Positions 240-63,050 of a DNA stretch of 64,000 bases are shown piece after piece. How positions within the stretch are numbered: position 1 is the stretch's first letter; each line of letters begins with the position of its first letter. The stretch is taken from the NCBI GenBank assembly GCA_902786595.1, contig CADADB010000002.1:94011-158010 (forward strand), given 5' to 3'. Below the pieces are notes generated by a model. The model ran no database searches. It was not told the DNA's origin and saw only the letters and a program-made list of their open reading frames with translations. This DNA comes from an uncultured Bacteroidota bacterium. GTDB lineage: Bacteria; Bacteroidota; Bacteroidia; Bacteroidales; WCHB1-69. A program made the position numbers and the translations under genes.

Positions 240-274
240 ACCCTTAACCCTTAACCCTTAAACCTTAAACCTAC
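240..274 (+). repeat. Heptad tandem array A (ACCCTTA)
   Basis: Five 7-bp units lie between atpB and atpE: ACCCTTA three times, then AACCTTA and AACCTAC. There is no opposite-sense arm here. The array starts 8 bp after the atpB stop codon. It belongs to the window-wide set described in the findings. Confidence 0.85.
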
Positions 275-314
275 AGATAGTAACCCTTTTTAATAACTTA
301 AATATCAAAACATT

Positions 315-590
315 ATGTCAAGTTTAGCAGTATTATTGACAACGTTGTTGCAAGCAGCAGGCGCAGGTCTCGGCATCGGAAAATTGGGTGCTGGTATCGG
401 CGCTGGTCTGGCCGCTATCGGTGCCGGTATCGGTGTGGGTAACATTGGTAAAGATGCCATGTCCGCCATCGCCCGCCAGCCCGAAGTGTCCGGCGACATC
501 CGTACGAACATGATTATCGCAGCCGCCCTGGTTGAGGGTGTTGCGCTGTTCGCCACCGTGGTGTGCTTGCTCATCGCTGTCGCAAAGTAA
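315..590 (+). CDS. atpE: F0F1 ATP synthase subunit c
   Basis: This is the 91-residue proteolipid of the rotor ring. Two hydrophobic helices are joined by the polar loop with Arg54-Gln55-Pro56 (RQP), the site that contacts gamma and epsilon. Helix 1 is very rich in Gly and Ala ([18 protein letters not shown]), as needed for tight ring packing. The ion carrier is Glu74 in [10 protein letters not shown]. The residues after it (GVAL) do not match the ES(T)xxY signature of Na+-binding rings, so protons are the likely coupling ion (inference). The start ATG follows an AT-rich leader. A terminator-like hairpin lies right after the stop, which could make this high-copy subunit more abundant than atpF. 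Confidence 0.95.
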
Positions 591-595
591 TGAAC

Positions 596-636
596 GGAAA
601 AGTTCCTTCGCGGTTGGCGGAGGAACTTTCCTTTTT
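596..636 (+). terminator. Terminator-like hairpin between atpE and atpF
   Basis: The arms GGAAAAGTTCCT and AGGAACTTTCC pair with one bulged A around a 13-nt loop and are followed by CTTTTT. It starts 6 nt after the atpE stop, inside the operon. It looks like a partial terminator or an mRNA-stabilising 3' end. Confidence 0.75.
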
Positions 637-663
637 AGTTGTAAATCAAAAAATTAAACATAT

Positions 664-1158
664 ATGGAATTGATAAAACCCTCATTCGGACTCATCTTTT
701 GGATGCTCATCGGATTTGGCATTCTCTTCTTCATCTTGGCGAAATTCGCATGGCCGATCATCACCAACGGCATTGCTTCTCGCAACAAAAAGATTGCCGA
801 CCAGTTGGAAGAGGCCGCCAAAATTCACGAAGAGATGCAGTCTTTGAACAAGAAACATGAGGAAATGATGGCCCAAGCCAAAGCTGAGCGCGATGCACTT
901 CTTGCCGAAGCCCGCAAAGTGAGCGATGAGATGTACGAGAAGGCCAAACTCAAAGCTTCCGCTGAAAGCCAGGCGATGATTGAAGACGCCAAAAAAGCTA
1001 TCTACTTTGAGAAAATGAAGGCCATCACCGATGCCAAGAACGCCATCGCCAATTTCTCCATCGACATCGCCCAAAAGGTGATTACTGAAGAGCTGAAAGA
1101 CCGCGAAAAACAGGAAGAACTTGTGGAAAAATGGCTTGAAGATTGCCATTTCAACTAA
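664..1158 (+). CDS. atpF: F0F1 ATP synthase subunit b
   Basis: Subunit b is the peripheral stalk that holds the F1 head to subunit a. The 164-residue product has one N-terminal membrane helix (GLIFWMLIGFGILFFILAKFAW, residues about 9-30) and then a long, charged, Ala-rich helix up to about residue 145, which is the classic b layout and length. The start ATG lies 73 bp after atpE. In most Bacteroidales loci the next gene would be atpH. Here the frame ends and a promoter for an unrelated peptidase gene follows within 6 bp; atpH, atpA and atpG lie at 18-21 kb on the other strand. Confidence 0.93.
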   Translation: MELIKPSFGLIFWMLIGFGILFFILAKFAWPIITNGIASRNKKIADQLEEAAKIHEEMQSLNKKHEEMMAQAKAERDALLAEARKVSDEMYEKAKLKASAESQAMIEDAKKAIYFEKMKAITDAKNAIANFSIDIAQKVITEELKDREKQEELVEKWLEDCHFN

Positions 1159-1163
1159 TTTTG

Positions 1164-1171
1164 TATTTTTG
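1164..1171 (+). promoter_or_regulatory. -7 box TATTTTTG for the C1 peptidase gene
   Basis: It matches the Bacteroidetes -7 consensus TAnnTTTG and sits 37 bp upstream of the peptidase ATG, only 6 bp after the atpF stop. It shows that the peptidase gene is not simply the next gene of the ATPase operon. Confidence 0.7.
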
Positions 1172-60915: not shown

Positions 60916-60921
60916 TCCACT

Positions 60922-61575
60922 ATGAGTATAATGCAATATCTGGCGATAGCCGCGGCGGTTTATTGCCTTGTTAGTTTATTGGCACATTTGGTCAAAGTAA
61001 TCCGCTTGGGTGCTCCGAAGGACAAGTCAGAGCCGAGCGGCAGTGTGAAGGAGGGCGTTATTTACGCCAACACCCGTGCCATGATGCCCGACCAGAAGGA
61101 GTCGGCGTATCTGCACATTCCGTCTTACGCCACGGGAATGTTGTTCCACATCGGTGTGTTCACCTGCTTGTTGATCTTTGTGCTCTCCTTTTTTCCGTTT
61201 TTCAACCGCTGGATTAGTGGCGGCTGCAATTGGCATCTGATTCTGGCCCTCCCGACTGTTTTGGGTACTATCTGTGGTGTTATCTTGTTTGTCAGAAGGT
61301 TGATCTCCAAAGATTTGAAGCCCTTTACCACGCCAGATGACTACATCTCCTGCGGACTGGTCACCCTTTTCCAGTTGATGACCACACTCTACCTGTGCTT
61401 CCCGACTTGTTGTGGAGCTGTTACCATATTATATTATATAAGCTGCATCCTGCTGCTCCTCTATATGCCGTTGGGCAAGCTGCGCCACGCGGTCTATTAT
61501 TTCGCGGCGCGGTATCATCTCGGCTTCTTCTATGGATGGCGGAATGTGTGGCCGAATCACGAAAATAAAGAGTAA
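60922..61575 (+). CDS. NarI/TmcC/DsrM-like membrane protein, putative b-type cytochrome
   Basis: An integral membrane protein of 217 residues with five predicted helices (YLAIAAAVYCLVSLLAHLVKVI; ATGMLFHIGVFTCLLIFVLSFFPFF; LILALPTVLGTICGVILFV; ISCGLVTLFQLMTTLYLCF; VTILYYISCILLLLYMPLGKL). His residues that could ligate heme lie in LHIPSYATGMLFHIGVF and GKLRHAVYYFAARYHLGFFYGWRNVWP; the latter stretch is a strong family mark of NarI-type quinol-oxidising subunits paired with HdrD-like proteins. It is downstream of the dsrC-like gene and overlaps nothing; a beta-CASP RNase gene follows after 6 bp. Heme content and quinone chemistry are inferred. Confidence 0.78.
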   Translation: MSIMQYLAIAAAVYCLVSLLAHLVKVIRLGAPKDKSEPSGSVKEGVIYANTRAMMPDQKESAYLHIPSYATGMLFHIGVFTCLLIFVLSFFPFFNRWISGGCNWHLILALPTVLGTICGVILFVRRLISKDLKPFTTPDDYISCGLVTLFQLMTTLYLCFPTCCGAVTILYYISCILLLLYMPLGKLRHAVYYFAARYHLGFFYGWRNVWPNHENKE

Positions 61576-61581
61576 ACCATT

Positions 61582-62988
61582 ATGAGACTCGACTTTTTAG
61601 GCGCGACCGAAGAGGTCACCGGCAGCAAGTTCCTGCTGACCACCAAGGACGGAATTAAGATATTGCTGGACTGCGGCATGTACCAGGGTAAAGGTCTGGA
61701 GACTGATGCCATGAACCGCGATTTGGGCTTTGACCCGACCAAGATCGACATCGTGTTGCTCTCGCACGCGCATATCGACCACGCCGGGCTTATACCATAT
61801 ATATATAAGTTAGGATTCCGCGGCAAGGTGTTCTGCACGCCGGCCACCCGCGACCTTTGCGCCATCATGCTCGCCGATTCGGGCAGAATTCAGGAGGCCG
61901 ATGCGCGGCAGTTCAACAAAAAGACCGAGCGCGTGGGCAAGACCCCCATCGAGCCCATCTACAACGAGAAGGACGCGGTGGAGTGCATGCGGCTCTTCAT
62001 CAGCATCCCGCGCGGACTGCACTTCAACATCACCCCGACCGTGGCCATCGACTTCATCGACAGCGGCCACATGCTCGGCAGCAGCGCCATCTACCTCACC
62101 TTCAAGGAGGGGCGGAAAACGCGCACGCTCTGCTACACCGGCGACGTGGGTCGTTACGACAAGCGCATCCTGCCCGATCCGGAGCCGTTCCCCTACGCCG
62201 ACTATATCATCACCGAATCCACCTACGGTGACCGGCTGCACTCCACGTTGGACGAAGCCGACAAGGAACTGATGCTTGTGGTGCGCGACGCGTGTGCGAA
62301 GCGCAAGGGCAAGCTGCTCATTCCCTCGTTCGCCATCGGCAGGACGCAGGAGATCGTCTATACGCTGCATCGTCTCGAACTCGCCGGCGACCTGCCCGAC
62401 ATCGAATGCTTTGTCGATAGTCCGTTGGCCTGCTCCGCCACCAACATCTTCCGTTTGCACGACGACTGTTTCAACGAGGAGATGCGGCAGTTCATGGCTG
62501 CTACGAAGGATCCTTTCGGTTTTGATAAGCTCTCCTACGTGCGCACCATCGAGGATTCCAAGGCGCTGAACGAGCACAACCGTCCCTGTATCATCATCTC
62601 CGCCTCCGGCATGATGGAGGCTGGGCGCATCAAACACCACCTGGCCAACAACATCGAGAATCCGAGGACCACCATCCTGTGCGTGGGTTACTGCGCCCCG
62701 ACCACGTTGGGAGCAAAGATTATGCGCGGCGACGAAACCGTTTCCATCTTCGGTAACGAGTATAAAGTGCGCGCCACCCTTGCCCGCATCGACGCCTTCT
62801 CCGGTCACGGCGACTACAGCGAGCTCATCCGCTACCTCTCCTGCCAGAAGGGCAACAAGAAACTCAAGAAAATCTTCGTTGTCCACGGTGAGAACGATGC
62901 TCGTGATGCCTACTCGAAACATTTGAAGGATGCCGGTTTCAAACAGGCGTACGTGCCGAAGTTCCGTGAATCTATTGAATTGGTGTAA
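61582..62988 (+). CDS. MBL-fold beta-CASP ribonuclease (CPSF/YSH1-like)
   Basis: A metallo-beta-lactamase fold RNase of 468 residues. Zinc ligands: LSHAHIDHAG (HxHxDH, around residue 61-66), FIDSGHMLGSSA (His) and the motif-4 Asp in LCYTGDVGRYDKRILPDPEP. The beta-CASP region has ESTYGDRLH (A), PSFAIGRTQEIVYTL, CIIISASGMMEAGRIKHHL (B) and the C-terminal His in FSGHGDYSELIRYL. Members process or degrade RNA in bacteria and archaea. It is 6 bp after the NarI-like gene but is unlikely to be functionally tied to it. A dispersed palindrome follows the stop codon. Confidence 0.93.
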   Translation: MRLDFLGATEEVTGSKFLLTTKDGIKILLDCGMYQGKGLETDAMNRDLGFDPTKIDIVLLSHAHIDHAGLIPYIYKLGFRGKVFCTPATRDLCAIMLADSGRIQEADARQFNKKTERVGKTPIEPIYNEKDAVECMRLFISIPRGLHFNITPTVAIDFIDSGHMLGSSAIYLTFKEGRKTRTLCYTGDVGRYDKRILPDPEPFPYADYIITESTYGDRLHSTLDEADKELMLVVRDACAKRKGKLLIPSFAIGRTQEIVYTLHRLELAGDLPDIECFVDSPLACSATNIFRLHDDCFNEEMRQFMAATKDPFGFDKLSYVRTIEDSKALNEHNRPCIIISASGMMEAGRIKHHLANNIENPRTTILCVGYCAPTTLGAKIMRGDETVSIFGNEYKVRATLARIDAFSGHGDYSELIRYLSCQKGNKKLKKIFVVHGENDARDAYSKHLKDAGFKQAYVPKFRESIELV

Positions 62989-62990
62989 AT

Positions 62991-63017
62991 GTAGAAACGC
63001 AAAATTCGCGTCTCTAC
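62991..63017. repeat. 27-nt palindrome of the GTAGAGACG class, imperfect
   Basis: Arms GTAGAAACGC and GCGTCTCTAC (one mismatch) around AAAATTC. It is the third copy in the window after 2478-2505 and 21872-21899, here directly followed by heptad array O. Confidence 0.8.
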
Positions 63018-63018
63018 T

Positions 63019-63050
63019 ACCCTTAACCCTTAAACTCTAAACCCTAAACT
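63019..63050 (+). repeat. Heptad tandem array O (ACCCTTA/AACCCTA)
   Basis: ACCCTTA twice, AACTCTA, AACCCTA, AACT, running into the start codon of rfbD at 63051. The unit is the same as in array A. Confidence 0.85.

Follow-up and report, generated by a model that had tools for sequence, protein, structure and literature searches.

What keeps the period of short tandem arrays at seven nucleotides when the repeated unit changes from one gap between genes to the next? The question is raised by a 64-kb stretch of DNA (the window, G000:C2:94011-158010) from a 2.84-Mb assembly, 93% complete, that is closest by PNPase to records of uncultured Bacteroidales, a good number of them from rumen and gut. 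The original prediction, made from this window, was that a common mechanism or a heptamer-reading protein lies behind its arrays. We propose, with a probability of roughly 0.58, that these gene-free arrays are arms belonging to a family of small elements located between genes and resembling the intervening sequences (IVS) of rRNA, in which the gene-bearing form consists of a left array, a PF05635 gene encoding S23p, and an inverted array, the arms forming a hairpin and S23p holding the units. A common mechanism is well supported, because unit families are shared, pairing is inverted, a module is dispersed, and one protein family is repeatedly associated; PF05635 as the reader is a candidate, and we infer rather than observe that S23p binds the heptads.

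The counts of arrays by period refer to 464 kb of the genome (the window and a further 400 kb, together 16% of the assembly), with genes called by a simple longest-open reading frame (ORF) script and no annotation used; the assemblies are those of uncultured bacteria, in which repeats may contain errors. Self-match of noncoding DNA at lag 7 was 0.376 against a background of 0.275 (z = 14.8; 0.361 with a hand-made gene list), and sharp peaks at lag 7 and its multiples were confined to noncoding DNA, coding DNA having codon-period lags only. The predicted enrichment of period 7 in intergenic DNA is evident: 73 arrays had this period, compared with five each for periods 6, 8, and 16, a number that no period other than the multiples of seven exceeded, and none for periods 5, 10, and 11 (counts at 14 and 21 are the period-7 arrays counted again). 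Tandem Repeats Finder (TRF) reported period-7 rows at 14 of the 16 entries that had been named as heptad arrays; those at 22875 and 60414 have none and are faintly heptadic by eye only. The accompanying statement that coding regions have no such arrays is nearly correct (7 of 80 period-7 segments lie mostly within ORFs of the simple caller), and the statement that the period is always seven is too strong, since arrays of like appearance with units of 6 or 8 bp are present in small number. Among the 8-bp arrays, those of ACGATGAR type (L135 18724-18810 and L147 6724-6811) are a minor relative of the heptads.

In several members of the genus, the gap matching window positions 62989-63050 holds a small gene of the family PF05635, the 23S rRNA intervening-sequence protein S23p; a PF05635 member matches TIGR02436 and PDB entry 2RLD, the nearest solved structure (6e-34). 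PF05635 matches were found in 40 of 40 genus genomes, with 2 to 18 in each, and in 0 of 14 control genomes. Ninety loci, those heading a match list of limited length, were taken and 87 were scored, leaving out L278 (short flank) and L283 and L290 (internal stop). With a score of at least 15 as the threshold, a strong inverted repeat spans the gene at 76 of the 87 loci, several of which are orthologues and not independent. The same threshold was passed by 13 of 436 ordinary genes (3/64, 4/91, and 6/281), by 5.5% of arms paired across different PF05635 loci, and by 0 of 55 and 2 of 46 control genes matched for size and gap (Fisher's test, 2e-24 and 2e-15). Both arms are tandem at 73 of the 87 loci, and at 66 the period is equal on both sides, mostly 7, with 6, 8, 9, and more also represented. 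When candidate partners were ranked for each left arm, its own right arm came first for 27 of the 87 and within the top five for 65. Dividing the genus into clade A (17 genomes with at least 79% NIF3 identity) and clade B (the remaining 23), we found the effect almost undiminished in the array-poor clade B, with inverted arms at 41 of 51 PF05635 genes, compared with 3 of 64 ordinary genes.

No rRNA was found by Rfam in 20 PF05635 loci (17 of them from the genus), only three tRNAs. The genes occur in every arrangement of neighbor orientations (31, 19, 12, and 8 of 70), so that co-transcription with both neighbors is unnecessary, and a promoter motif between left arm and start codon, present in 28 of 81 loci and in 77 of 368 control ORFs, is not telling. 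At one locus (L217), only the 3' end of the PF05635 gene and one arm remain. The genome to which the window belongs has five PF05635 matches, three of them with arms (AATGTTG, AATTGAT, and CGATTTA types); none of the five lies in the window, which therefore has gene-free forms only.

The association extends well outside the genus. PF05635 is present in 157 of 198 Bacteroidota genomes, and 11 of the 30 top-scoring loci among these passed the inverted-repeat threshold, compared with 5 of 487 control genes. Gene-free arrays with other units recur in scattered lineages of other Bacteroidales. Ten genomes with arrays from lineages outside the genus, all of which have PF05635 (unremarkable given 157/198), gave 21 passes among 30 PF05635 loci, compared with 0 of 132 control genes. 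On plasmids, where the control was cross-paired flanks instead of control genes, an inverted repeat was present at 24 of 26 PF05635 loci (26 of 33 matching records) and in 54 of 650 cross-pairings; arms were tandem on both sides at 22 of the 26, in Treponema, Monoglobus, Bernardetia, Chlorohelix, and many cyanobacteria, and the annotated neighbors on all 26 plasmids are coding sequences. Five phyla are represented (Spirochaetota, Bacillota, Bacteroidota, Cyanobacteriota, and Chloroflexota). Short tandemly repeated repetitive sequences (STRR) are heptanucleotide repeats of filamentous cyanobacteria, and the link to them that the original prediction had drawn was right: heptamer arms also flank the PF05635 genes found on plasmids of cyanobacteria. 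Heptamer repeats were reported earlier from cyanobacteria and from Flexibacter litoralis (PMC4679880, PMC4692102). The latter species is now placed in Bernardetia. GGGNATC repeats have been reported in Xanthomonas and Nostoc (PMC4692102), and a second structure matched by PF05635, 2GSC, is from Xanthomonas. Several plasmid loci have neighbors of separate interest: on two Nostocaceae plasmids (L373 and L448), the PF05635 gene and its arms separate cas2 from cas1, the gene being antisense to the two; at L456, the gene lies between two type III-B genes; and a Chloroflexota plasmid (L376) and a cyanobacterial one (L452) share its placement in one operon gap, with a DUF1156 gene on one side and a Swt1-like HEPN gene on the other.

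The gene-free arrays are tied to these genes by their units and by their positions. After arrays near PF05635 genes were removed, 76% of 347 PF05635-arm units in clade A (own genome excluded) and 63% of 264 in clade B also occurred in gene-free arrays, compared with 24 to 25% of shuffled arm units. Window arrays 15564 and 32061 belong to the families of the PF05635 arms at C1:180 kb and C9:88.8 kb of the same genome. Four slots that hold PF05635 in relatives fall within the own-genome sample, and three of these (window 62989-63050 and two slots of L143) are gene-free with arrays, two of them inverted pairs. Many other gaps likewise consist of a left and a right array, inverted and with related units (e.g., 16118-16203, 51155-51278, 57442-57545, and 60802-60916), and six folds of five window stretches gave predicted hairpins with z scores of -3.1 to -8.1.

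As the original prediction had anticipated, one and the same gap can hold different units in sister species. The slot between promoter and start of the gene at 15612 has AAACCGT, TTTCAAG plus TTATAGT, AAACCCT, AACCCTC, AACCCTT, or GACTTGA heptads among the sisters, and upstream of NIF3 (57438) heptads of several families are present in 15 of 17 species listed and absent from G006, the row for G030 being misread from an incomplete locus. At slot 60803, both arms have switched to one new family in several species. Own halves of the NIF3 slot paired with a score of 9.0 and swapped halves with 6.7, a gain that is small because a fixed 140-nt cut often misses an arm. In one listing of the NIF3 slot and of the beta-CASP slot, the rows used were those of plus-strand loci. 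Loci 13022, 21069, and 51117 have retained the family, with copy number or single bases altered, and two orthologous gaps differ by whole units (the 16125 gap by 21 bp between the window and G010, and the 21069 gap by 4 versus 3 units).

The same slots could be read in the opposite direction, with heptad hairpins belonging to the host and serving as targets, PF05635 genes inserting into existing loops as IVS replace the tetraloops of 23S rRNA helices. Gene-free hairpins in the corresponding slots of relatives would fit this, as would a Nostoc PF05635 gene with long arms that lack a tandem signal (L450) and a G030 gene (L256) nested within inner TTGATTG arms and outer GGTTATT arms, the latter with the leader word GCTTCAATAACC of the module described below. 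We consider this doubtful on three grounds. Gene-free arrays are rare in clade B (0 to 1 per 20 kb in seven genomes, against 0 to 6 in eight clade A genomes), yet 41 of its 51 PF05635 genes are armed; in the fourth slot mentioned above, the own genome and G006 have different PF05635 genes in opposite orientation and with different units; and the unit weakly tracks the protein across loci.

The description of units as locus specific holds in that they differ between loci, but they do not differ freely: 150 intergenic arrays of own and sister sequence, all but one of them at a distance of over 600 bp from the nearest PF05635 gene, contain 882 units that fall into only 174 of about 1172 possible heptamer classes, with GGTTATT the commonest (20 of the 150 arrays) and GACTTGA in 12. 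One family is a dispersed 37-bp module, GCTTCAATAACC-NATAACC-NATAACC-NATAACC-ATTA, present in 81 copies at up to three mismatches and in none with a backward-pattern control; copies at 0, 1, 2, and 3 mismatches number 24, 28, 25, and 4, and the limit of three partly builds in the invariance. The leader word occurs 46 times in the genome, compared with once for its backward control, and 40 of these exact sites continue as the four-heptad module. Fourteen of 15 distinct module loci read have four heptads, whereas length varies in several array families, and 10 of the 81 copies are within 1 kb of another. The three N positions (243 bases: 112 C, 75 A, 55 T, and 1 G) form 23 different triplets, and most of the other positions are invariant. 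Plain slippage is not a ready explanation of 81 near-invariant modules with free N positions; copying together with constraint or homogenization is.

In appearance, the arrays are unlike the products of plain slippage. Slippage of a polymerase that prefers seven would leave neutral debris in tolerated gaps, the period reflecting the polymerase footprint, an idea attributed to Mrazek 2007 as cited in PMC4679880 and PMC4692102. The changes of copy number in multiples of seven agree with it, some arrays are long and perfect (e.g., TAATTGA at L153 13042-13122), and heptanucleotides, according to the passage on that survey in PMC4679880, outnumber every other category of long repeat in the majority of the genomes covered. 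Slippage is nonetheless an unlikely cause, given that unit families are common to loci and species, that inverted arms belong to one family, that the module, in 81 copies, is near-invariant apart from three free positions, and that the association with PF05635 in clade B and on plasmids of five phyla is left unexplained.

The position of arrays relative to gene edges suggests a third possibility, that they are sites at which a host RNA- or DNA-binding protein controls neighboring genes, PF05635 being incidental. Among arrays within 15 bp of a gene edge, G exceeds C in 20 of 22 with the gene on the left, and C equals or exceeds G in 25 of 32 with the gene on the right, for either gene strand; as a general rule this chirality was rejected, for it holds in the own genome and is reversed in some Nostoc and Aulosira arms. 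Fifteen of the 17 module copies sampled in the own genome are at a stop codon or no farther than 9 nt from a start codon, compared with 697 of 4000 random intergenic positions, and translational roles for start-codon arrays were proposed by MacGregor 2015 (PMC4679880). We judge regulation improbable as the main explanation, as modules adjoin start and stop codons alike, a wholesale change of unit in one leader between sister species is unlike a regulatory site, and the PF05635 arms would be left unexplained. Synthesis of heptads at broken ends by a reverse transcriptase or telomerase-like enzyme, which the telomere-like units, the one free position per module unit, the G-rich strand pointing away from genes, and the relationship of PF05635 to Avd-like proteins might recall, is very improbable, and RVT_1 as array maker is largely refuted, being detected in just 9 of the 40 genus genomes, whose assemblies are incomplete, in a distribution that does not match the arrays, and not found in the array-bearing G013, G016, and G043.

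If the arrays are arms of an IVS-like element, as we favor, their properties could be accounted for as follows. The element would comprise a left tandem array, a small PF05635 gene, and an inverted array of the same unit type, and its arms would act as a hairpin in DNA or in read-through RNA. A toroid of five S23p subunits, or else a relative that works in trans, would hold the repeated units; by touching successive units, the ring would keep the period while the sequence drifts, would allow one free position per unit, and would let both arms change together. Such elements would persist in untranslated gaps because they are harmless there, as intervening sequences are in the tips of rRNA helices.

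A series of results weighs against this interpretation. Arm unit and protein sequence correlate weakly across loci (p = 0.03; 26 locus clusters), which is compatible with contact by a ring and could also reflect gene and arms moving together; close non-syntenic pairs share arm units in 21% of 53 cases, compared with 2% of distant pairs, and as a rule, "arm unit follows protein" was accordingly not retained. About 450 arrays are extrapolated for the own genome, against its five PF05635 matches and three sets of arms. The largest family, GGTTATN, has no PF05635 gene with a matching unit in the 93%-complete assembly, so the idea of one cognate gene per repeat family fails there, and array load does not track PF05635 copy number, G002 having 18 copies and no array in 20 kb. 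Outside the genus, 19 of the 30 top-scoring Bacteroidota loci have no strong inverted repeat, and arrays were present in 3 of 10 PF05635-rich genomes compared with 0 of 10 without the gene, a difference that is not significant. Near-identical copies within a genome were not seen among the loci fetched, the sole pair above 55% identity being at 66%, nor was recent transposition among the PF05635 loci compared, and at most of the window's slots a PF05635 gene is absent from all the species compared.

A bolder version would make the heptamers of cyanobacteria, Xanthomonas, Beggiatoaceae, and Bacteroidetes the arms of one cross-phylum IVS-like family, in which each subunit of a pentameric S23p ring reads a single unit, made up of six bases and a free spacer base, as TRAP reads its triplets, the period thereby being fixed near seven while the sequence can drift. 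We hold this version to be speculative and rather unlikely.

Intervening sequences without an ORF exist. Those with an S23p ORF in 23S rRNA are known from Leptospira and Coxiella, and S23p, a four-helix-bundle protein of pentameric, toroidal build, belongs to a family with solved structures whose function is described as not known (PMC4990558). The likeness to the elements reported here includes a PF05635 ORF within complementary stem-loop arms, sporadic presence, and conserved sites (PMC4990558). The ORF is found in every genus genome and the arms at most genus and plasmid loci; a location in a 23S or 16S rRNA helix was found neither at the 20 loci searched, nor in the window, nor among the plasmid neighbors, and we therefore class the elements as IVS-like, not as IVS. 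Unlike the arms of 23S IVS, those described here lie between protein genes, consist mostly of tandem heptads, and have a copy-specific unit. Known heptanucleotide repeats share with our arrays the tandem 7-nt intergenic units, a free unit position (GGGNATC), proximity to one ORF, and variation of length and sequence between relatives (PMC4679880, PMC4692102), but the passages of those reports considered here draw no tie to PF05635 or to inverted arms, and a text search of PMC4679880 for "four helix" gave no match. TAACTGA heptamers of Beggiatoaceae and five Bacteroidetes, Paludibacter among them, are listed by MacGregor 2015 (PMC4679880), so the earlier remark that no description was known for Bacteroidales was partly wrong. 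Miniature inverted-repeat transposable elements and repetitive extragenic palindromic (REP) elements are also short, dispersed, gene-free, palindromic, and placed in gaps; they differ in that the arms here have no fixed sequence (174 unit classes, with copies that differ) and no GTAG head, and PF05635 is no known transposase. Diversity-generating retroelements have a reverse transcriptase, for which the distribution of RVT_1 gives little room (template and variable repeats were not sought), and the Avd model NF033474 matched two of three PF05635 proteins, both below its cutoff.

Heptamer repeats, intervening sequences, and S23p are thus each known separately. Apparently new are the link between heptamers and PF05635, which, as far as titles and the openings of abstracts show, no paper found in our mainly open-access literature searches (for one search, 20 of 2,610 hits) makes, the copy-specific inverted heptad arms in five phyla, and the 81-copy module, which did not appear in those searches either. 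Heptanucleotide repeats occur in several bacterial groups with no accepted cause, and the pairing gives the repeats and S23p each a testable partner; if it is correct, intervening sequences extend from rRNA to the intergenic DNA of five phyla. The individual arrays of the window are listed in Table 1.

Table 1. Heptad arrays and related features of the window, in order of position
Position	Strand	Feature	Basis or comparison
237..272	+	C-type heptad array ACCCTTA, 5' of gene	TRF
2429..2466	+	G-type degenerate array, TAGCTAT/GGCTNTT family, at stop codon	TRF
5424..5468	+	C-type array CTATTCA/CTAATCA (GTGATTA family) in 5' leader	TRF; related array in G006
13024..13060	+	37-bp module copy (2 mismatches), adjoining stop codon	
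14497..14523	+	Left arm, GACTTGA	TRF
14613..14652	+	Right arm CAGTCCT, reverse complement of GACTNNR type	TRF
15564..15609	+	C-type array AAACCGT ahead of start codon	Sister species with other units in slot
16118..16203	+	Inverted pair of GCTNTTR arrays; predicted hairpin, z -3.1	TRF, folding
17977..18021	+	C-type array CAATAGC, ending at stop codon of minus-strand gene	TRF
21105..21207	+	GGCTATT array, CCTATAACC units, and 37-bp module copy; predicted hairpin, z -3.3	
22875..22900	+	GGCTATT-like heptads, very degenerate	By eye; no TRF row
32061..32094	+	TAATTGA array	TRF
51155..51278	+	Inverted pair of GAYTNNR arrays; predicted hairpin, z -7.0	Family retained in G006 and G010
57442..57545	+	Inverted pair TTGTGAY / CTAATCA; predicted hairpin, z -5.0 (+) and -8.1 (-)	Slot compared in 17 species
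60414..60445	+	TTCACTA heptads, faint	By eye; no TRF row
60802..60916	+	Inverted pair GGTTTAA / CCTTAAC; predicted hairpin, z -4.0	Sisters with other families, several with both arms changed together
62989..63050	+	Short palindrome and C-type array ACCCTTA	PF05635 gene between heptad arms in other genus members

Rfam identified two cobalamin riboswitches in the window (2541-2727 and 5082-5268) and nothing else, rRNA included; the leader behind the second riboswitch ends in a heptad array. Separate from the heptads are perfect or near-perfect palindromes of the form GTAGAGACG...CGTCTCTAC with a variable core, seen at window positions 2478-2505 and 21872-21899, at 39 of 458 loci, and in many copies in the own and sister genomes. 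Their GTAG head is reminiscent of the REP elements of RAYT transposases, and GTAGGGGCG...CGCCCCTAC is apparently a second palindrome family of like kind.

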